Shown in pieces: positions 1,563 to 26,592 of a stretch of 64,000 nt of DNA. Origin of the DNA: Apostichopus japonicus (lineage: Eukaryota > Echinodermata > Holothuroidea > Aspidochirotida > Stichopodidae); NCBI RefSeq assembly GCF_037975245.1, contig NC_092574.1:20210213-20274212 (forward strand), written 5' to 3'. The notes below the pieces were generated by a model. The model saw only the letters and a program-made list of their open reading frames with translations. It was not told the origin of the DNA and did not search any database. How positions within the stretch are numbered: position 1 is the stretch's first letter; each line of letters opens with the position of its first letter. The position numbers and the translations under genes were made by a program.

Positions 1563-1814
1563 CGGGCTAAAGTTGTCATATGTAGTTTGTTGCCAAGATT
1601 TGACAACAAGGTTCTGTCAGAAAAGATTGTAACTTTGAATGGTTTATTGTATAGTTTGTGTGCCGACTTCGGCTTCACATTTGTTGACATGTGGTCATCT
1701 TTCCAGGGTAGAAGGGATTTGTTCGCCAGGGATGGTTTGCACTTAGCTAATACTGGGGCCTCGTTGTTTGGTAGGATGGTGAATTACTCTGTTGAACAGC
1801 TATGTTTAAACTAA
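1563..1814 (+). pseudogene. LINE ORF1, C-terminal SGNH/GDSL esterase fragment (5'-truncated)
   Basis: The frame reads through 1563-1814 and ends in TAA at 1812-1814. It has two blocks of the SGNH hydrolase fold. One is a VVICSLLPRFDNK strand-loop near its start. The other is RDGLHLANTGASLFGRMV, whose Asp and His fit the catalytic DxxH of the block V motif. The nucleophile Ser block is absent because the copy is truncated. Esterase-type ORF1 proteins are known in CR1/L2-clade LINEs, where they are thought to act in RNP formation or membrane association. The stop lies 13 nt inside the ORF2 start. No ATG is visible for this remnant, so it is probably not expressed as a functional protein. Confidence 0.7.
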
Positions 1815-4750
1815 ATTGGGGGACGATGAAGTCAGGAATTAGTTTGGATAAGGATTATGTTCCTAGTGGAGGCGATTATAGGCGTTTTGAGAGCAAAATA
1901 AGTGATAGTCATAGTTCTAACTTTAGGAGGCATGCTAAGGTACATAGTTTCAGGGATAGGCTGAAGATTGTCTTTACCAATGCTAGAAGTATTCGTAAAA
2001 ATTTTGCTGAATTTACTGTGCTTCTCGAGGATCTGAAACCGGATGTGTTTGGTATCACCGAGTCTTGGTTAAGGGAGGACATTGATAGTGCTGAGGTTTC
2101 TCACCCGGGGTATGTTGTGTATCGTCAGGACAGAAGGGATACTCATAATGGGGTTGGTGGGGGAGTTTTACTGTATGTTAGGGATGACATTGTAAGTGTT
2201 GAGAAATCTCAGTTGCAAGGGTCTTTTGTTAATTCTGTCTGGTGCGAGTTGTCCACAAACAACTCCAAGAGGTCCAGGGACGTTATCACTGTGGGTGTTG
2301 TTTACCGCTCTCCTAACAGCAGCGATGATAATGATGTCGTGCTGTTTGATTCAATTAGAAAGGCTGCTAAAGGTGATATTGTTATAATGGGCGACTTTAA
2401 TTTTCCTGACATTAATTGGATAGATGGTTCTAGTAGTAGGAAAGGTAGTAATTTTCTAGATGTTGTGCAAGATTGCTTTTTACATCAACATGTTACTTTC
2501 CCTACTAGGGGGGATAACATCCTGGATCTTGTTTTGAGTTCTAATCCAAGCAATGTTGTTGATTTGACCGGTCTAGGAAAACTAGGAACTAGTGATCATG
2601 ATATACTAGCTTTTGATGTTGTTTGTAAGGTCGTAAGTTCTATTAGCAAGGAAAAAGTCCCTGATTTTTCGAGATCAGATACAGAGGCAATTGAAACTTT
2701 ACTAAAGGGTACAGATTGGATTAATTTGTTTAGGGATATGAGTGCTTCTCAGTCTTGGATTTGTTTTGCTGATAAATTAAAGGTCATTATGGAAAATCAT
2801 GTTCCGTGGAAGAATCGTCGTCGTAAAAGCAGTATGCCTCACTGGATGAATAAGAAAGTTAGATGTGCAATTAGGCAAAAACGTAGAATGTGGAAGTTGT
2901 TTAGGAGGACTAAATCTGAATCTCTTTTGGCCAAGTTTAAAATTCATCAGCTGAAAGTAGAATGCTTAGTCGCTGATGCAAAATTGAATTTCGAAAAAAG
3001 CATCGCCCTAAAAATTAAGGATAACCCAAAGGCCTTCTTTTCTTATGTCAGGTCTAAGCAGAAAGTTAAAGATGCAATTGTTTCCCTTAGGGCACCACAG
3101 GCTGATAAGATAGTTACTGATAGTCAGGATCTTGCAGATCTTTTGAACGACTATTTTGTGTCGGTTTTCACAAGGGAGGATACGAGTAGTATTCCAGATT
3201 TTCAGGGGGGCAGTGATAGGCCTAAACTGGATACGGTCTTATTTTCGGATGACGTTGTCTTAAAGGAGCTGCTTCGTCTAAATGTTTCTAAAGCTTCTGG
3301 ACCGGATGCAATCCATCCGTATTTGTTGAAGACTTTTGCACACTATTTCTGCGTTCCACTCTCGTTGATTTTTAGTAAATTTATGGATGAAGGTTATGTT
3401 CCTAGGGACTGGAGATGTGCTAATATTACCCCAATTTTCAAGAAGGGTGATAAGACTAAGCCCTGTAATTATAGGCCCGTTAGTCTCACTAGTGTAGTTT
3501 GTAAGGTCATGGAGTCTATTGTTAAAAAGTCTTTGGTCTGTCACTTCAGCAGTCAGTCTTTGATCAGAGAGTCTCAGCATGGCTTTTGTCAAAAAAGGTC
3601 TTGTCTCACTAATATCCTTGAGTTTATGGAAGATGTAACAAGCTCACTAAATAGGCAGAGGTCTGTAGATGTTGTGTTCCTGGATTTCCAGAAGGCCTTT
3701 GATAAAGTTCCCCACCAGCGTCTTTTACTTAGGCTGAAGAGCATGGGTGTCATAGGGAATTTACTGTCTTGGATCGGGAATTGGCTTGGTAATAGGGAAC
3801 AGAGGGTGGTAATTAATGGCTGTGCTTCTTCTTGGCAGAACGTTACTAGTGGGGTTCCACAAGGGTCTGTATTAGGTCCCCTGTTGTTTGTTGCCTATAT
3901 AAATGACATCGACGGAGATATTTTGTGTACAGCTAAGAAGTTTGCTGATGACACCAAATTGTATTCTGAGGTCTCTTCCAAAAGCGATTCTGAGAAATTT
4001 CAAGCGGATTTAGATAAGATTTTTTCCTGGTCTCAGGGGTGGCAAATGCTTTTTAATATTGATAAATGTAAGGTAATGCACATTGGTAGTAGTAACCAAA
4101 AGTTTGCATACAATCTAAATGGTGTGGAGTTACAGGAGGTCTCTGTTGAAAGAGACCTAGGTATCTACATTGACTCGTCTCTGCAACCTTCCAAACATTG
4201 TCTTGAAGCTGCTAAAAGAGGTAATAGGGTTTTAGGTATGATCAAGAGGAACTTCAGTTTTCTGAAAGAGGACATCGTAGTTAGGCTTTATAAGCAGTTG
4301 GTTAGGCCTCATCTGGAGTATGCTGTGCAGGCTTGGAACCCTTATTTTGCTAAGGATAAGGAAGTACTTGAAAAGGTCCAGAGGAGGGCTACTAGGATGA
4401 TTAGTTCCTTAAAGAGGGTTCCTTATTATAGGCGGTTACAACTGTTGAATCTCACTACACTGGAGCTTAGGAGGTTACGTGGGGACTTGATCCAGGTTTT
4501 CAAGATTGTGTATGGTTTCGACAATTTATCCTTTACCGACTTTTTCATGTTTGCAAACAGTAGTTGTACTAGAGGTCATTGTCTTAAACTTCAAAAGTCG
4601 CATAGTAGGATTAATATTCGGCATAACTTTTTTTCTAATAGGGTTGTGAATGAGTGGAATAGTTTGCCTGAGAAAGTTGTACTTGCAAGTAGTGTCAATG
4701 GGTTTAAGAATGCTTTGGACAAGCACTTTAAGCATTGTAATCGGGTCTGA
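1802..4750 (+). CDS. LINE ORF2: AP-endonuclease / reverse transcriptase
   Basis: A 982-aa intact frame. The N-terminal third is an exonuclease-endonuclease-phosphatase domain: NARSI near residue 60, TESW, GDFN at 197-200, and SDH at 264-266, the catalytic His block. The middle is a reverse transcriptase with SGPDAIHPYLLK, NYRPVSLTSV, LDFQKAFDKVPH, SGVPQGSVLGP and the catalytic FADD at 714-717. The C-terminal part has LVRPHLEYAVQAWNP and NEWNSLPE, the usual CR1/L2-type tail. There is no RNase H. Its role is target-primed reverse transcription: the endonuclease nicks DNA and the RT copies the element RNA. The ATG at 1802 overlaps the end of ORF1 by 13 nt in another frame, which suggests coupled reinitiation. 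I saw no internal stop or frameshift. Confidence 0.92.
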   Translation: MFKLNWGTMKSGISLDKDYVPSGGDYRRFESKISDSHSSNFRRHAKVHSFRDRLKIVFTNARSIRKNFAEFTVLLEDLKPDVFGITESWLREDIDSAEVSHPGYVVYRQDRRDTHNGVGGGVLLYVRDDIVSVEKSQLQGSFVNSVWCELSTNNSKRSRDVITVGVVYRSPNSSDDNDVVLFDSIRKAAKGDIVIMGDFNFPDINWIDGSSSRKGSNFLDVVQDCFLHQHVTFPTRGDNILDLVLSSNPSNVVDLTGLGKLGTSDHDILAFDVVCKVVSSISKEKVPDFSRSDTEAIETLLKGTDWINLFRDMSASQSWICFADKLKVIMENHVPWKNRRRKSSMPHWMNKKVRCAIRQKRRMWKLFRRTKSESLLAKFKIHQLKVECLVADAKLNFEKSIALKIKDNPKAFFSYVRSKQKVKDAIVSLRAPQADKIVTDSQDLADLLNDYFVSVFTREDTSSIPDFQGGSDRPKLDTVLFSDDVVLKELLRLNVSKASGPDAIHPYLLKTFAHYFCVPLSLIFSKFMDEGYVPRDWRCANITPIFKKGDKTKPCNYRPVSLTSVVCKVMESIVKKSLVCHFSSQSLIRESQHGFCQKRSCLTNILEFMEDVTSSLNRQRSVDVVFLDFQKAFDKVPHQRLLLRLKSMGVIGNLLSWIGNWLGNREQRVVINGCASSWQNVTSGVPQGSVLGPLLFVAYINDIDGDILCTAKKFADDTKLYSEVSSKSDSEKFQADLDKIFSWSQGWQMLFNIDKCKVMHIGSSNQKFAYNLNGVELQEVSVERDLGIYIDSSLQPSKHCLEAAKRGNRVLGMIKRNFSFLKEDIVVRLYKQLVRPHLEYAVQAWNPYFAKDKEVLEKVQRRATRMISSLKRVPYYRRLQLLNLTTLELRRLRGDLIQVFKIVYGFDNLSFTDFFMFANSSCTRGHCLKLQKSHSRINIRHNFFSNRVVNEWNSLPEKVVLASSVNGFKNALDKHFKHCNRV

Positions 4751-16562: not shown

Positions 16563-19500
16563 ATGACAACATATCATGACGAAGTGGAAATTGAAGATTT
16601 CGAATACGATGAAGAAGCAGAGACTTACTACTACCCTTGTCCATGTGGAGACCGATTTGAAATAACGAAGGTTCATAAAATGTCTTGATCTTTCAGTAAT
16701 TAATCACTTACGTAAGCATTGTAATTTGTATCTACGCCTAACCCTACTTTGGCCATATTAGGGAACCTGTTCCACGAAATAATTTCGGCCTACAGACATC
16801 AACTTTGCACAGATTATCTTTGAACACATCATCTTTGCATACATTTACTGACATGCCTTTTAGTTATTAATACAAGTATTGAATATTAAGTTAGAGTTAT
16901 GGTTAGGGAGAAAGAGGTTCAGTGCAGAGGTTACCATTAAGGTCTTATATGAGTTTTAATTATCAAAGAGAAAAGGCTAAATTCTGTGTAGCCCCAACTA
17001 TAGCCAGGAAATCCCAAGTGACTGCAACTGATGGGCTAGACCAGCCACTGGCCATACATACTAGAAATACCATCTGGCTGAGTTGCACATCATGAATTTT
17101 AAAAGGTAATTTGAAAAGTTCACACAGAAAGTGTGAATGCTACTTTAAGAAGTTACCATAAATTTATACATTATCACATGTGTGCATTCCACCACTTTGC
17201 ACGTAGGGGTCTCAAAATTCCACTTTTATTCGATAGTCGAGGAGACGCCCCTCCAATTATGTCCCTTCCCAATTTTGTGGTTCACATTTATAGTAACCAA
17301 CATTGTATCAGGAAAAGTTGGGAGCTATGTAGACTGATCATGCTGATGTTTTGATAGCCTAACTTGTGTATGCATTGAGTTAAAGGAGCTTAAACCATTT
17401 GTTTGGTTATCACTTGGTCAGTATAATTCCTCCTAATGAAAAATAATGATTTGTATAATATCGGATGTAGATGGTGTTTGCTTTTAAGTCTTTGGCCTTA
17501 AATTTTTTGGAAGGCCTTATGTAGGCTAATTACATATTCAAATTGACAAATTCATATTGCAAAAAGTTACCAAAATGTATGTTTTAATGAAGTTTAAAAG
17601 AAAGAAAAGAAACTATACAGGTTAAAATCATAATGTGATTATTTTATTTATATCACAGGATGACTTGGCTAATGGTGAAGATGAGGCTACATGTCCCAGC
17701 TGCTCCTTAGTTGTTAAAGTCATCTATGACATCGTAAGTAAAGATCTTCAAAACCTTACTTTCTTTTTATTATCTACTTGTTGATTTATGTTTCCTTTAA
17801 ATATGATATATTTGGAATTTTTCTTTGTTGCCATTCTGCTGTGCATTTAGAATTTCATCAAAAGGTTTAGGGGCCTTTTCCAAACTCGCCGTTGCGGTAT
17901 GCCGCGGAAGAGCACAGCTCGTGTGCACTCAGGTGTGTCTCATTATTGCAGCAAGCTCAAGTGATCACTCCCGAGCCTTTCCGAAATATTCCACCACAGA
18001 GCTAGCATGCACTTAATCCGATTAGAGTTACAAAGAAAGCACTGCTGCTAGGAGCAGAAACGATCGATACTCTCAGTCCAGGAAGTTATTATACTGTAGT
18101 GATTTACTGAATTTGACCTACTGTTTCGTCAAGAAAGTGTTTCCCCACCTATTGTTGTTTACAACATCGTAACTACAACTATCGTAATACAAGCACCATC
18201 AGTATGCACCTTGTCAAATTCGTAGGCATGCATGAGCCTATCCTAGGCCTACATTGCACAACAACGGCCCACAATAAACTTTCAAGAAAGGAAAACTTTG
18301 ACTTTCTGTTGAAGTTGTCACTTCCTAACAAAAATCGATGTTAATTATTTTTTTAAGTTTATGGCATATATAAAAAGGTCTTAAATGCAACCTCTTGGTA
18401 AAAATTGTTCCGTTTGTACATTTATTGCCCTTATCGAGCACTGAGTTATGGCCAAGTCACGCAGTTCATTGAAAAGCATCTAGCCTAGCATGTGTGAAAT
18501 AGCGTTATGTGCTGCGCGTTTGAATATGGAAGTGTTTCCAGCATATCTCTCGCCGCCTAGCGCTAGTTTCCGTCAAGAAAGGAGTCCGTGGCTTCGGCCT
18601 TAATTATATTTAGACGCTCAATATGTACTGCGCTTGCTGCTTAGTATATGTGCAATGAACGTAATTTTATCAGAGGGCAAACAGATCGAACCTATTATAC
18701 TGTACGCGTGCTTCCCATCGTCGGCATAAATTTTGTCTGGGTGTTTTAACTCCTTTATTCCCAATTGTGATCATATAATTGTTCCCCTGGGGGAAAAATA
18801 TTAACACATTGTAATTACTTAAAATCTGTTCATTTTGTCAATAGGGACCCAAGTATTGACAAATAGGTATTGAAATGAGGTTTTAATTTTTATAATTTTT
18901 AAAAGTGTTGTTTATTGATGCAGCCTGCAGTCTGTCTTATGTGCAAAATAAAGCTATGGCAAGCTCTCTAGTGTATTCCTATCTCGAGTAATGACTTTCT
19001 AAAAACAATGGTCCACATTTGGACCATCTGAAGGGAGGGAGTTAATACCGATAACTTTAAGAAAGCCATTTATAGCGTCCGAATTGACTAGCACATAAAA
19101 CTTTTGGCTAGATAATTTTTTATGTATCTTTTAAAACAACATTCTGTTACGTTTTCATACCATCATAAATCCAACACAACTTTATTATTTTTCACCTTTA
19201 TCGACCAGACTATAAGGACTTCGCAAAAAACAGACCAACTGACACCCATCGTTAATATATTGAACACAATCTTTATTACAAAACATTTCTTAAGACAAAA
19301 CAGCAAGAAAATATAAAGAAATTACAAAAGAGCTAGTCTTCGTCCTTCTGACCTACATCTGTCGTTTATTGCTACACGGAGTTTACCGAAAGCTTCGGTT
19401 GTTTGTGTGCAACCCTGGAACTCCAGCTCTGCCTGCCTTAGAATGGCTTTGACCTTTGAACGGTCCAACTGGAGTTTGGTTACTTTTCCCACACCCGTTA

Positions 19501-22500
19501 CAACTAATCCCCCGTCATAATTACTCTGCAACATCTCATCCGAGCTAAAGAAATGAGGCATCAGCCTGCGAACAAAAGACGTTGCAGTGGATGATCCCAA
19601 AAAGTATTGTTCGTACTTGTCCTTGTCTACAAATATAGCGTTCTGGCTATCCACCGGTATTTTCACCAGATTGCCAAGGAGGGTTCCGTAAAAAGGAGAA
19701 ATCCTCCTAGACGATCTTCCAGTTGGCGTCTCAGGGGAGTTGCAATCTCCGCGGTTAGGTCTGCGAGGTGTACCGTTCTCCGATCCATTCTTGCGGTTCA
19801 CTCTTTGAGTTATCAAATTTTGAAGAGAATCTCCCTGGTGCTTGACCTCAGCAATTGCTTCAAGCATCGCATTAAGTTTTTCCTGAAATGTTTCAGTTAT
19901 GCTACTTTGAAAAAGTTTGAAGTCCGATTTCAGCTCCTGTACGTCTTTCCTTACACTTTGAAGTTCGCTTCTAAGTTCATTGAACTTTTTCGCAGTCTCA
20001 AACTGAACTGCTGGATTGACGTCGTCAAGGCGTTTATCTGCAATGTCCGTTTCCTCAAGGCGAAGACAAGGTGGCTGGGTGTCTGCCGTCGGTGAAACGG
20101 AGCTTCTAACTTCCGACTCTTGTACGTGAGGTGGATGGTTTACCTCTTCGCCACCACGAGAATTTAACAATGTCGATATCGGGGCATCGTCCTCAGCATC
20201 CAACATCGGTTCTTGTTGAACCTCGTGCTCACCTTTAAATGAAAAGGATTGGGAGGGTCAGGAAAAACATATATGTTCCTTGATAAATGGTCTATCTTAC
20301 GAACACTGCATAAAACTAAACATTTATTGACTTGGTGTACATTTGACTTGAGGAGGGGCTAACAAGATATGTTACCTTTTTCATTCATTTTTTTTTATAT
20401 TTCGGTGACAATCGTATTATTAATATGCAAAGCGATGTTTATTTTGGAAGTTACTATATAGTTGTGTGTACACGGAAGTGATCCACGACAGAGGACTATA
20501 CATAAATCTATATGACTAATACGTCATCAGATAAAAATAACGAATGGCTTGGGAATATGAAGAAATGAATGAAGCTATCACATATTAAAGTTTGGTATAG
20601 TAAATCAGGGTAAAAAAAAACAGGGTAGTTGGGGTAAAAAAAAGCCACCCCCACTACAAGTCGTGAGAAATTGAAACACATTTTTGTATGGTGTATGTGA
20701 AAACCATGGTGCCCAAGTCAATTCTGACATACTTTATATATTGTTACTATTCTTTTCCATCAGCGTACCGATACTTTTAGCGCCGATTTTTCCCATACTC
20801 TAAAAATAGCAAATATTTAGGTTCTGAACACTGTCCTTTAACTAATTTATCCCGCCAAAAAATATTAGAACTGATATAGAGGATTTTGTTTCTTGGTTAT
20901 GATAACAAGAGGTGTACCTACATGAATCAGTAATGTAATTACCCGCACGATCTGCCAGTTTTCTCGAATGACGTGGATTTTTTTTTACCCCAGGGTTTTG
21001 TGTCCGTTTGGGGTAAAAAAAGACCAATCCTATTTTCCTCCCAAAATGGTTTTTATTTATCACAGAATGTTAGAACTGCTATATGATTGACACAGGGAGT
21101 ACATCTATGCTCCTCTAATTTCTACCAATATAATAATTTACATTTTTATAACTAACTGTTGCCTGTTCTTAACCCAAGTTATTGCTATGTTAGCCTAGTG
21201 TTATAGCCTAACACAATATATGTCTGTTGCATACGGTTATCTTGTTATATTTAGAGTCCTAAATTATTCTCTACCCTAAGTCCCAACCCCACAGCTGGAT
21301 GTGATACTAATATATAGGTTAAACTTTAAGGAAACGGGTTTTTTTTTACCCCGTCTTACTATATATATTATTTCGAGGATCAGCTGTTCTGAAAAGGATA
21401 TTCTAAGAGTATCTGCTCAATGCTAAAGCCAATGTCATTAAACAATTTAAACATTATGAGAATGATGAAAAGTATGAACCTACCATCTATGGCTTTGATC
21501 ACTGCCTTATAAACTCGTCCTGATGATCGCCACCTCACCAGGGCTGTCACACCGATACTTAGCTTACTTCGGTGGGGTTTTAGCACACATTTTGCCCGGA
21601 CAGTGGATTCTCGCCCACGATCCCTTGCGGGTTCCATCCAGCAAACTACAACGGAAGTGTTGGCTGTGATTTTGGGAGCCATAATGTCACAGTAGCAATA
21701 TGGAATAGAGTAGATCCAAATGAAAAAGGCAACGAGTCGTTTTCGCCGAGTGGTAGGTGCAATATAGGGACACTATCGTCGCGAATACTTTTTTAAACCA
21801 ATTTTAAACCGCATCAAAGCGCAAACATGGGCCAATAGCTGCACTGCTCTAGTTCAACGCACAATTGCGCGCGGGGGATCAAACAGCAAATACAATAGGG
21901 CCGTTTAGGGTGTAATAAATTTGTTTTGTCTGGGGATTATCGGCAGGGTGAATGAAGTTAATAGGGAATAAATTGTGCAGAAAGCTATTATACCGTTCAA
22001 TCTCGGAGAGTCACTATATCAATACATCAGTTTCAGTCAAGACCAAACTTTTCCGATATCAATTTAATGAAAGTTCAGCGTTATATGCAGCTACCAAACT
22101 TCTGAATATTTCCTAATCAAAATGGACGCAGAAAGTGATTGTTCACTTGATTCGTGGCTCGATGCTCGATTTGATTACGAAGACAAGGAAAACTGTCCAG
22201 AAGAATTTCCGACGTTGACCTCGATATGGACACAAGAGAGCAGAATAAGTGTAAGTTCATAATCCATTTTGATTCCGACCAAGCATTGAAGAAGCCCCTC
22301 CCCAGTTTTTTTTTTCAGCACGCCCTGTATAAATACTGTATAACACATTAAGTTTCTTATTTCAGAAATATAAATACTGAGGGAAAATTATACTTAAAAG
22401 AATCTAAACTAAGAAGAACAACATATGCAAAGTCCGCCGAAATACCGTTTTTTTTTCTAAGTTAATATACATTAAAGTGTGTGGCGGAAGGAAAAAATCG

Positions 22501-25500
22501 CAGAAGTAGTACACATACTGCATAGTGTTTCTTAACATAGAAAGCCTATATTTATAGTATAGGCCCTATCCAAAAATCATTTTGATAGACCGAACGCCGT
22601 TTAGTATTATCTGCTGCCCATTAGTTTTTTAATAAATTACGTCCTATATGAGTGAAAAATTTAAGTGTTTCATGGTTGTAAATGAATTATTACTAGCAAT
22701 GCTTTGGAATAATGTAAGTTTCAGTATAAACTAAATAACGTACTAACGTTGATCAAGGTGGTAGTTAAAGGCTATACACTGTAAGCTACTGTATGTAACG
22801 CCACGTCGCATTACACTAACTTTTGGTTATAAAGAGCTCGCACTCGTATCTCTAAGTGACGAAAAATGTAAACGCTCTTATTATTTTTTTTTATATCTTT
22901 TTTCTTCTGGTTGTACCGTACGGCAACCTGTGTAAAACTGAAAGTAGTTCGGCGCATTTTTTTGTAGATTTGGAAAAATATGTTTGTAAGCGTATTAAAA
23001 AATATTGATTCACGGTGAAAATGCTAAATGAAGATGGCTAATTTTTTTTTCGTTTTCCGTCTTCAGATACCTCTGCCTGAGGTGAAAACACCACCAAAGG
23101 TAAAATTACAACACCGACAGGACCCTAGGCATAACAGCGGGAGGAAACCGTTCAGGCTTACGTTTCCCCACCTCGTTCCTACCGTGAATGAATTTATCGG
23201 AGACAACGGATTTACAGCACACGAAAGACGACGATCAACGACTGGCAGAAGTTGCGGAACGTCCCTCGAACAACTTCGACAACACGTTGTGTGTACTTCA
23301 AAGTGCCCTAACGAAGTAAGTGGAGTTACTCTCCGACGATTAATGGAGCCACCCTCGAAACTCAGGAACTCTCGCAAGCGGTACAAAGGGCTGGTGAAGG
23401 CAAAAGTTGCGGCGAAGAGGAACGATGTTCGGAAAACTAATGCAGACGGGCACTACTATGCTGCTAGGATCCGCTACCGATTGGAGTTTGGAAGGGAATT
23501 CGAGGAAAACACCGTTGTTATGTCTGCCGATTGCATGAACAAGGTTCACATTGGTGGGTTAGCAGTCAGCAGATACCATCAGATTCGACGGATTTTCCCT
23601 AACGATGACCGACCAAACGTGCCTGACCATGATTTCCCGATCAGCAAAGGCTACAAAATTACGCCATCTGGTTACATGGTCCTGAAAAGCAAGCCGGGTT
23701 TCAAGAAGACCACACAAGACAAACTGGGCCGTGAGGTTTATCAGTTTCCCAGGACTGGACCTGCTTTTGTTTTCAACCGTGTCACCAACTTCCGTAAAGT
23801 AAACATTCAAAGTCACGTGAATGACATGGACAACATTTTGAGTAGAGAAGGTGAAGGGAAGACAATGGTGATCTTGTCGGTAGATGGAGGGCCAGACTGG
23901 AACCCAAAGTCGTGGACCGTCCAGCTGTATTTGCAGAGACTTTTTAAGCGAAGGGACCTGGATTTGCTTTGTGTGTCGACGTACGGCCCTGGACTTTCTG
24001 CTCTTAACATGATAGAGCATCTATGGTCCCCATTGTCGGACAAACTCTCGGCAGTATGTCTTCCAGCTGTCTTGCAGGGAGAAGAAGTCCCGCCCGCTCT
24101 TCAAACAGGACAGACCGAAAAGCAGAAGGAGGAAAAAGAGGTCATCGTCTTTGATACGGCAATGGATCGATGCGGAGAGTACTGGAAAGGCACGACATAT
24201 GACGGGTACGAAATTGACGTCATACCGGAGTATTGTAATGGTCAGGATTTTCCTTGGGCGGATTACGACACAGTACATGCTGCACTTCAGAACCCAACTA
24301 GGAAAAGTATGAGGAACCACCCTGACATCCTAAGTGAACTTAAATTCATTGCAGCCCATTGTGATCGTCGGTTGGGTGAATTTACGCTAATTAAATGCAT
24401 GGAAAGGTCATGTACTCACTGCAGCCAGCATCCTGTAAGAAACGCACATGCGATGGAGAAGATCTTGGGACAGGGAATGCCTACACCAACCATGGACGAA
24501 TCCCTTCAAACACCATCCCCACATTTTTTTACTTATATGGAGGCGCTGCAAAGACCATGGCAGACAGCAGATGAGGAGATGCAACTCTACAAGTCTCTCA
24601 AACTGGGCCGATGTTCTGAATGTAGATACGTATTTACTTCGAAGAAGGATAGGAATCAGCATGTCTCCATTCTCCACAGCTGAATGTTTGTGATGTAGAT
24701 AATATATCCTCAATTTATATCATACCATATATTATAATTTTTCACCCCCACCCCGTCTGATAGGCTATGACTGTTCATATTTAATACCGTAATTAATTAT
24801 TATTGTGGAAGCATAAATTAATAAATGTCGATGATTTTAACAATAACCTTTTTCCTTATGTGTTTACAAGTGAAGTGATAAACCAAATAAACGAAACGAA
24901 ACAATCAAAGAATTCGTGTTCGACCTAATATATCATCTGTCAAGTTTGTCATAGTCTGTGTTGCAATCCTCTTCAGTAAACTGACAAGTGATATTTAATT
25001 GAAACATAACACGCTGCATCAGTTAGTTGGTAGCTTAGAATGTATAGTTTTTAAAGCCTAAAGGTATGCTGTATTATATATTATTGCTGTATTATATATA
25101 TGCCAGAAATTCAAATATGGTCACCTTTGGTCAAATTCTTTAACTGTTTTTATTATCACCTCGGAGGAAATTTACCTCACTGGAACATTCAGTCATCTTG
25201 TGTGTTCATTTATAATGTCTGAGAACAATTTGGAGAGTAAAGACATTGAGGTAAATATCTTTTAAAACTTCTAGCAATTCAAGCACGCTATAATTTGGGG
25301 CCTATATACAGGATATTGAATTGAGGGGCCCCCGAGTTGAAAGAGTTTACTGTGAAGAAAATGAGTGCGCGGTATCGTAGACATTTATTTTGCATATAGG
25401 TTTCAATAATAAACGATTCACGTGTCATGATATCGCTACTAAGAAACAAGTATAGTAGAGCAGTCAAAGCTAACACCGCAGTTTGCCAAATTTCCTTTAG

Positions 25501-26592
25501 TCTTAAACACCGTTTCCACTATTATTCACGTGTAACGGGCCACATGTACTTAGGTCTCCTGCTAAATATGATTAAGTATTCATTGATTATAACACAAAGT
25601 AGTTACAGTTCGAAATTCGAAGTTTCGTCGAACACCACACACGCGCGGCACGAGTGTTAACAGTACATATGGGTGTATGTACTGTAGGCAACGTTGTCGA
25701 ACTCCTTCAGCTACTGTACTCTGTTCACTGGCGAATCGATTAAAGCGTTTAATCAGGGAGTTGTTATGGAACAACTACCCGCAAAACAACTCCCTGATTT
25801 AATAAAGATTTCGGTTTGTTTTTCAGGGTATTAAATATCAAATGGCATGTGAAATAACATAAAAAAGAAGCAAGCAAAAAAACAAGTAAGCCAGGTTGTG
25901 TTTATTTCTCTCTCCGAACAAAATAAACTTGCATTGCAGGACCGGGTTTCACTCTGCTGAACACAATAGGCATAGGCTAGGCCTACTCATTCAATCCACG
26001 ATAAGCCGTTCTATTCAGTGCAGGCTGTCCATTGTGCCAGCAGACAATGCTCTGTCCGCTGACTACCTAATTAATCTTCGGGACTTATCGGTCAAAGCCT
26101 AGTGATGTCATTCAGAATATTCATAGCCTCCGCGGAAATTCGGCTCTCCGCGGCATACCGCAACGGCGAGTTTGGAAAAGGCCCCTTATGTAGAATGGTG
26201 TTTTCTGTGACCAAAGCGTGTTAAACAAAAGCATTTTCAGTTGAATTGGCACGATGACATCATCCACCCAGCTGTTGCCAGATGCCTGCACAAAATGCCA
26301 CCAAATTTGAAAAATCCATATCTTTGCCATCAAACATGCTATCAGGATGTGATTTTGACCGACAGATACAAAAAATCTGTAGTATTTATATTAAGCAATC
26401 AACTTCAGCCTCTGGAATATCCCTTTGAGTTACCCAGTGACATTGAAAAAGTCCATTTTCAAATGCTAAGGAAATGTTCATGCTAACATTGCAACTTTAC
26501 TATATCTCATCTATTTCTCCAATTAGGATGATTTCATGGAGGGGGAGACAGTGCCAGCTGTCGGACAGAGAGATGTAGAGGTTGCCACGTGA
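16563..26592 (+). CDS. DPH3: DPH3, CSL zinc-finger protein of diphthamide synthesis
   Basis: Three coding exons, all in phase 0: 16563-16670, 17659-17733 and 26527-26592. They give 82 aa, the same length as human. The product begins [20 protein letters not shown]. It has the four zinc/iron-binding cysteines in [13 protein letters not shown] and [13 protein letters not shown], and ends in [19 protein letters not shown]3 is the electron donor for the DPH1/DPH2 radical step of diphthamide formation on eEF2, and is linked to Elongator tRNA modification. Exon 1 uses a weak donor (AAG/GTTCAT). Intron 2 is 8.8 kb because an 8.3-kb DNA transposon sits in it on the same strand as drawn; without it the intron would be about 0.47 kb. 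The longer open frame upstream of 16563 is 5' leader. Confidence 0.95.
17870..17908 (+). repeat. Left terminal inverted repeat of the Zator-like element
   Basis: 39 bp, exactly complementary to 26147-26185, with TTA immediately outside at 17867-17869. It ends in the GC-rich TATGCCGCGGA. After one indel the arms share AGAGC, so weak similarity extends a little further in. Confidence 0.95.
17909..19321. other. Left non-coding part of the transposon
   Basis: Subterminal region with no recognisable coding block. It presumably includes transposase binding sites and the 3' untranslated region of the minus-strand BEN gene. On the minus strand an AATAAA signal lies at 19272-19277, 45 nt past that gene's stop codon. 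Confidence 0.6.
19322..21682 (-). CDS. Transposon-borne BEN-domain protein with Tudor-like N-terminus
   Basis: Two exons on the minus strand, 21682-21484 and 20232-19322, join in phase 1 across a GTAGG..AAAG intron to give 369 aa. Exon 1 encodes [10 protein letters not shown] and a Tudor/chromo-barrel-like strand pattern ([20 protein letters not shown]). Residues about 143-210 form a heptad coiled coil ([19 protein letters not shown]). A basic Ser/Pro linker follows, then a BEN domain at about 250-367 ([48 protein letters not shown]). BEN domains bind DNA or chromatin proteins and are known in animal repressors, some DNA viruses and transposon proteins. The gene lies back to back with the transposase gene inside shared TIRs, so a role as transposition accessory or chromatin-targeting partner is inferred. 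It is not related to the Myb-like partner of Harbinger elements as far as I can see. Confidence 0.85.
20596..21363. repeat. Nested repeat with GGGGTAAAAAAAA inverted ends in the BEN-gene intron
   Basis: The left end reads TATAGTAAATCAGGGTAAAA (20596 onward). The right end (about 21336-21363) read on the minus strand gives TATAGTAAGACGGGGTAAAA. Further copies of GGGGTAAAAAAA or its complement occur at about 20631, 20978 and 21009. The arrangement suggests a MITE of about 770 bp inserted in the intron. A duplicated TA or TATA at each side is possible but cannot be separated from the surrounding AT-rich sequence. Confidence 0.5.
21683..22121. promoter_or_regulatory. Shared divergent promoter region of the two transposon genes
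   Basis: 439 bp between the start codons of the minus-strand BEN gene and the plus-strand transposase gene. It is locally more GC-rich, with CpG-containing stretches such as CGCACAATTGCGCGCGGGGG around 21858-21880. No clear TATA box was identified for either side. A divergent arrangement would allow joint expression. Confidence 0.5.
22122..24683 (+). CDS. DDE transposase, Zator/ISAzo13-like, with C-terminal C2H2 finger
   Basis: Two exons, 22122-22250 and 23067-24683, join in phase 0 across GTAAGT..TTCAG to give 581 aa. Exon 1 encodes an acidic start, [20 protein letters not shown]. The candidate catalytic residues are D198 ([15 protein letters not shown]), D316 ([11 protein letters not shown]) and E360 ([15 protein letters not shown]), giving DD43E. 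The D-G-G-x-x-x-N-P-x-x-W stretch and the IEH-x-x-x-S block are like bacterial ISAzo13 (transposase 36) proteins, the family from which eukaryotic Zator is derived. A Cys/His cluster ([12 protein letters not shown], about 487-498) and a C-terminal finger (C559, C562, H575, H580) could bind zinc and DNA. AATAAA signals lie at 24820 and 24886. Expected role: cutting at the TIRs and inserting at TTA. No stops or frameshifts were seen. Tc1/mariner is the main alternative. Confidence 0.85.
25062..25304 (+). repeat. Dispersed repeat, copy A (partner at 63290-63520)
   Basis: Clear similarity to the minus strand of 63290-63520, including the shared blocks TTCAAATATGGTCA, CATTCAGTCATCTTGTGTGT, TGTCTGAGAACAATTTGGAG, AAAACTTCTAGCAATT and TATAATTTGGGGCCTATA. 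Copy A lies inside the Zator-like transposon. A short open frame exists in the other copy but has no family features I know. Confidence 0.85.
25751..25799. repeat. 15-bp perfect inverted repeat (hairpin), AATCAGGGAGTTGTT
   Basis: AATCAGGGAGTTGTT (25751-25765) is followed after 19 nt by its exact complement (25785-25799). A related palindrome, ATCAGGGAGTT..AACTCCCTGAT, is at 48393-48422, so this is a small family rather than chance. Confidence 0.85.
26147..26185 (-). repeat. Right terminal inverted repeat of the Zator-like element
   Basis: Exact complement of 17870-17908, ending GGCCCC, followed by TTA at 26186-26188. Confidence 0.95.

Follow-up and report, generated by a model that had tools for sequence, protein, structure and literature searches.

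In the genome of Apostichopus japonicus, an intact DNA transposon of 8316 bp occupies an intron of a DPH3-like gene (positions 17870–26185 of the window, the 64,000-nucleotide stretch analysed here, C14:20210213-20274212 on contig NC_092574.1) and carries two genes, one for a transposase of the ISAzo13/Zator kind and one for a protein with a BEN domain. The same transposase–BEN pair recurs in distant relatives of this element. We consider it probable that the element is a cut-and-paste transposon that works as a two-protein system, and the most likely role of the BEN protein, by analogy with the Myb-like protein of Harbinger, is that of the transposon's own end-binding partner.

The terminal inverted repeats (TIRs; 17870–17908 on the + strand and 26147–26185 on the − strand) are identical over 39 bp, or 40 bp with the flanking A/T included; 8238 nt separate the 40-bp arms, and TTA target-site duplications lie directly outside them (17867–17869 and 26186–26188). 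A search of the window for the first 18 TIR bases, allowing up to three mismatches, gives two occurrences (0.05 expected). The interior holds two divergent, head-to-head genes of two exons each, with GT-AG introns and open spliced frames, and their start codons are 439 bp apart. The transposase gene, on the + strand, has exons at 22122–22250 and 23067–24683 around a phase 0 intron (22251–23066) and encodes 581 amino acids; the BEN gene, on the − strand, has exons at 21682–21484 and 20232–19322 around a phase 1 intron (20233–21483) and encodes 369. The initial annotation had described perfect 39-bp TIRs, bounded by TTA, around divergent spliced genes for a DDE transposase and a BEN protein, and the sequence bears this out. 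Across the 671.6 Mb searched (35 contigs), ends with the same TIRs recur in 15 places for the family of the window element (family A), 115 forward and 115 reverse for family B and 42 for family C (with 1 control match); we therefore reject chance or an assembly artefact as the source of the element.

The second transposase exon encodes an RNase H-like DD43E domain and a C-terminal C2H2-like finger, as judged from the gene model, profiles and structure models; by hand conversion of protein positions, the codons of the catalytic residues D198, D316 and E360 lie at 23529–23531, 23883–23885 and 24015–24017. The NCBIfam ISAzo13 model NF033519 matches the transposases of the window element (E = 6.9 × 10−8) and family B (E = 1.1 × 10−10), both below its equivalog cut-off of 200 bits. 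A comparison with the Pfam ISAzo13 model, proposed in the initial annotation, gave a divided answer: the window copy scores 22.2 bits, below the PF07592 cut-off of 26.9 bits, and the family B protein, at 27.5 bits, passes it. Neither model matches the family D transposase. ISAzo13 is nevertheless the sole transposase family that Pfam and NCBIfam name for families A and B. Searching the PDB with a transposase profile yielded no informative match (best E = 1.4); in structure-model comparison, the best solved folds were the Mos1 mariner transposase and retroviral integrases, and the protein has the RNase H-like DDE core of the IS630-Tc1-mariner group. A CxxxxCxxC motif and the C2H2-like finger at the C terminus (24396–24683) are both kept in families A, B and D, and Pfam names the finger weakly, in family D alone. 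The evidence supports a DD43E enzyme of the ISAzo13/Zator kind. An ISAzo13-type transposase together with a 3-bp target-site duplication is the feature pair named for Zator in PMC10045372, and on account of ISAzo13-family homology and the 3-bp duplication we retain the earlier placement of the element as Zator-like.

The first exon of the BEN gene, which has a homologous exon in families B and D, supplies the start codon and a conserved N-terminal domain; the second encodes a coiled coil, the BEN domain (residues 285–361 of 369; 19349–19579, converted by hand from the Pfam match) and the stop codon. A PDB profile search with 13 family and related BEN sequences found BEND6 (E = 3.8 × 10−5), structure models of the family C homologue recovered the BEN fold, and this homologue scores 23.2 bits with Pfam PF10523, exactly at the cut-off. 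Because of the NCBIfam ISAzo13 match, the relatives over or at the Pfam cut-offs, the PDB profile and the structure models, we regard the identities of both proteins as settled, that of the BEN protein by sequence and predicted fold.

The genome contains at least four diverged families of the element (A to D), with transposase identity down to 38%. In an alignment of the three intact transposases, those of families B and D are 44% and 38% identical to the window copy. The transposase search returned 36 matches that merged into 17 loci, and the family D transposase as query found no loci beyond these. A BEN gene or exon lies beside 9 of the 17 (one by a weak match), in all nine cases head to head with the transposase. 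These are the window copy; C17:25.27M and C17:16.68M in family A (transposase pieces of 72% and 93% identity); C2:8.99M in family B (43% identity in the search); C17:15.45M and C17:21.75M in family C; C19:4.06M and C2:26.58M in family D (39% identity in the search); and C16:29.44M, at which BEN exon 1 alone was seen (E = 8 × 10−4 in a small set). Each of the four families has at least one copy with both genes between paired ends, namely the window copy, C2:8.99M, C17:15.45M and both family D copies. Searches with the TIR and both proteins, as initially suggested, thus yielded further copies with TWA duplications and the gene pair; the claim that the BEN gene belongs to the conserved element holds, and the check for other copies with the BEN gene outside it did not overturn that claim. 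We found no relatives in a viral contig collection (transposase and BEN alignments) or in a collection of bacterial and archaeal genome contigs (transposase alignment), and a tblastn search of plasmids gave one meaningless match (E = 5). A genome search with the model PF07592 found nothing at E ≤ 0.001, in this genome or in 14 control genomes; that search did not see even the family B copy, whose protein scores above the cut-off.

The element inserts into TWA. In the complete copies read, the ends start with GGG and have CAAA at bases 12–15, or AAAA in some family A ends, and matching TWA duplications flank five of five copies in family A, one of one in family B and two of two in family D (8/8 together). 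The family B list covers 100 of 226 ends, each an exact match to TWA plus TIR (TWA was required for listing, matching between the two sides was not). The listed ends form 38 pairs, among them the family B copy already counted as complete, and 24 have no partner in the list; 37 pairs match (20 TTA, 17 TAA) and 1 is mismatched (P = 1.4 × 10−10 if copies are independent; some, for example on C11 and C16 with like spacing, resemble segmental duplicates). Family B has spread as short copies: 24 of the 38 listed pairs span 2.35–2.49 kb, and another pair bounds the full 7960-bp copy. The 3-bp duplication expected of Zator and ISAzo13 is thus present in families A, B and D and absent from both complete family C copies (C17:15450259-15456860 and C19:14826612-14829780), in which the left flank is TAA and the right flank TTA (0/2 direct TWA); the flanks of the former can alternatively be read as TTAA on both sides. 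For the C16:29.44M copy and the two decayed copies of family A on C17, we found no ends in the DNA read there.

The elements have also moved. An empty site (C2:7368108-7368304) has a single TTA and is 97% identical over 197 nt to the insertion site on C10. It belongs to a duplicated host locus that has insertions at the same site in four places (C10:11332945, C11:5539311, C11:8750892 and C15:9028425, of about 3.8, 7.0, 7.0 and 13.6 kb) and is empty at C2:7368108; of these, only the C10 copy (both ends) and the two C11 copies (one end each) were seen to have family A ends. A C19 copy of 1447 bp is made up of both ends of the window element (98.8% identity over 801 bp and 99.2% over 649 bp) and carries its own TTA duplication. 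Because of this identity of about 99% and the separate duplication, we interpret it as a recent internal-deletion derivative that moved, in agreement with the recent activity proposed at the outset. Older copies on C8, C16 and C10, about 89–93% identical to the window element, retain both ends together with a segment just past the BEN stop codon.

Inspection of the sequence by eye places the intron of each gene identically in families A and B, in position and in phase: the transposase intron (phase 0) precedes (I/V)PLP(E/D)VK and the BEN intron (phase 1) falls at G|GTGA. A continuous reading frame spans the intron region in the BEN gene of family C and the transposase gene of family D. Both genes also look constrained. 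When the window element is compared with two decayed family A copies, the ratio of non-synonymous to synonymous substitution rates (dN/dS) for the transposase is 0.49 and 0.53, and for the BEN gene 0.60 and 0.47; these comparisons share ancestry and are non-independent (neutrality rejected by a simple binomial test, P = 0.0005 and 0.003 for the transposase, 0.03 and 0.006 for the BEN gene). Between the two decayed copies, the ratios are 0.94 (transposase) and 0.86 (BEN). The family D transposase gives 0.30, from 19 changes, and the family C BEN gene of C7 compared with four copies gives 0.44, 0.32, 0.50 and 1.11. This conservation and constraint, read from sequence, are consistent with an independently evolved two-component system.

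We propose that the DD43E transposase would cut at the GGG...CCC ends and insert the element into TWA, and that the BEN protein, with its coiled coil, C-terminal BEN domain and conserved N-terminal domain, would bind the transposon ends as a multimer, contact the transposase and help to recruit, import or synapse it; the BEN protein would also be needed by the element. The partner role fits best because a coiled-coil BEN protein has long been kept beside the transposase. One working parallel is PIF/Harbinger, which likewise has a DDE transposase and a DNA-binding partner as two genes, a 3-bp duplication and TIRs of 25–50 bp, and the Myb-like protein of which binds the transposase, permits joint nuclear import and binds the ends (PMC9179366); its transposase family is unrelated and its partner is Myb/SANT-like rather than BEN. 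In Tn3-family TnpA, it is DBD1, a domain with a BEN-like fold, that reads the terminal inverted repeat and is a key determinant of its recognition (PMC9579193), but there the domain lies inside a single bacterial transposase of another family, whereas here it is a separate protein. A bolder version of the proposal, in which the system is independent and obligately two-protein and the BEN protein reads the ends, so that the BEN domain would in essence be a reader of transposon ends, fused in Tn3 and separate here, and in which partner genes of this sort gave rise to some of the BEN transcription and chromatin factors of animals, seems to us rather improbable. KolobokP is also an animal DNA transposon with a DDD/E transposase and a further protein, but has TTAA targets, a Kolobok transposase and a His-Me endonuclease partner (PMC9587614). 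Zator elements share the ISAzo13-family transposase, the 3-bp duplication and the TIRs, and differ in that a second, BEN-domain gene belongs to the window element. The BEN fold is shared with the animal proteins BANP, NACC1, Insv, BEND3 and BEND6, which are host transcription or chromatin factors, whereas this one is transposon-encoded; a coiled coil is present in some host BEN proteins. We found no paper on a Zator element with a BEN domain in the open-access literature, coverage that lacked Repbase, Repbase Reports and the original Zator paper, and none of the listings and passages surveyed there places a gene for a BEN protein within a DNA transposon of a eukaryote. Among the texts consulted, the literature linking BEN to transposable elements concerned Tn3 and bracovirus genes in Lepidoptera, and that linking BEN to transposases or DNA transposons concerned Tn3 and lateral transfer in Lepidoptera.

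Several observations weigh against a partner role of the BEN protein. The BEN gene was undetected at 8 of the 17 transposase loci, all degraded or fragmentary (C17:25.05M, C17:16.37M, C14:6.44M, C17:20.70M and C16:31.51M, with flanks read to about 1.5 kb, and the weak loci C20:8.02M, C17:24.93M and C17:24.25M, covered by genome-wide searches alone), among them two family B relatives with longer transposase remains (C17:16.37M and C17:25.05M) and a family D relative (C17:20.70M). Three genome-wide BEN queries placed nothing within 10 kb of these eight, the nearest match being 15 kb from C17:24.25M, and the exon 1 match at C16:29.44M is absent from the genome-wide BEN lists. The window BEN protein scores a weak 15.4 bits with PF10523 (cut-off 23.2 bits), four non-BEN Pfam families gave it better E-values, the BEN exons of families B and D have no match to that model, and the structure model of the N-terminal domain lacks confidence. 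The dN/dS method is simple, the BEN values are modestly below 1 and the family C value of 1.11 rests on 10 changes. Some motifs are commoner at the ends than inside (CCGCGGA in family A, AATGAGC/ATGAGCA in B, CGTTCAA in D); no BEN target motif common to the ends of different families was found, so we make no claim on end motifs.

The main rival to the partner role is that the BEN protein is a self-encoded regulator that, bound to the ends or to the promoter region that the two genes share, represses or insulates the element, or attracts host chromatin factors, with the effect of limiting copy number or hiding the element from silencing. The divergent arrangement, with start codons 439 bp apart in the window, would suit this, and host BEN proteins are linked to chromatin silencing and gene repression (PMC9579193). 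BEN-only copies, which also tell against the partner role, exist at C19:14826612-14829780, C2:22.885M, C16:30.08M and C7:7.46M; one is complete between its ends, like the product of a repressor-making deletion. This C19 copy is a 3.2-kb family C derivative with a nearly open BEN gene and no transposase match, and would suit a repressor-making copy. Such copies are, however, few and mostly damaged, and the BEN gene has been kept across families with 38–44% transposase identity, and a mere repressor would probably be kept less strictly; we regard regulation as possible but unlikely. Much less likely still is that the BEN gene was captured from the host and rides along as a passenger without any part in transposition. 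The genome is rich in BEN genes (27 matches above the Pfam cut-off with PF10523, the window BEN gene not among them), and the family A BEN domain is 31% identical to a BEN gene on C1, the same as to family D. The gene nevertheless has the same place, orientation and homologous N-terminal exon across diverged families, the same intron phase in A and B and a constraint similar to that of the transposase. Repeated capture is conceivable, because the BEN-domain tree, with weak support, leaves the families unseparated from the C1 gene.

Membership in PIF/Harbinger, a two-gene superfamily with 3-bp targets, would account for the TWA duplication, the 39-bp TIRs (within the 25–50 bp range) and the second DNA-binding protein. 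Harbinger prefers TWA targets and ends that start with GG. The families A and B transposases, however, match ISAzo13 and no other transposase family in Pfam or NCBIfam, the solved structures that match best are those of Mos1 mariner and of retroviral integrases, and the partner has a BEN rather than a Myb/SANT domain. Harbinger pairs with IS5-like elements (PMC5718144), and the window element has neither an IS5-related transposase nor a Myb/SANT-like partner. On the transposase we reject membership and give this alternative next to no credence; the 3-bp duplication and two genes mark a likeness of working, not membership.

Outside the element, the DPH3-like exon upstream of the insertion (17659–17733, + strand) scores 28.5 bits with the Pfam CSL zinc finger PF05207, just below its cut-off of 29.2, and the next host exon, with the stop codon (26527–26592, + strand), is presumably also of DPH3. 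At 1796–4747, a 984-amino-acid open frame encodes both an endonuclease and a reverse transcriptase domain and belongs to a non-long terminal repeat retrotransposon. Genome-wide, C17 (5.5% of the genome) holds 9 of the 17 transposase loci, all within about 10 Mb (15.45–25.28 Mb; binomial P = 8 × 10−8), and may contain a low-recombination or sex-linked region that accumulates old copies. Thirteen of the 27 PF10523 matches are a 119-amino-acid open frame repeated on many contigs (for example C14:17.45M (L070), C10:8.73M (L071) and C16:29.39M (L073)), which may represent another mobile element that carries a BEN gene; the L070 BEN domain is 15–21% identical to six others compared.

To our knowledge, few eukaryotic DNA transposons need a further protein that they encode themselves, Harbinger being the textbook case. 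If the partner role of the BEN protein is correct, a second, unrelated superfamily would have converged on the plan of a 3-bp target and two genes with another DNA-binding domain, which would reveal what such partners do. Direct tests could use the intact copies of families A and B, which are sufficiently complete. The element is a possible source of BEN proteins, which are found in animals and some DNA viruses, and its BEN protein may be linked to the BEN-like end-reading domain of Tn3.

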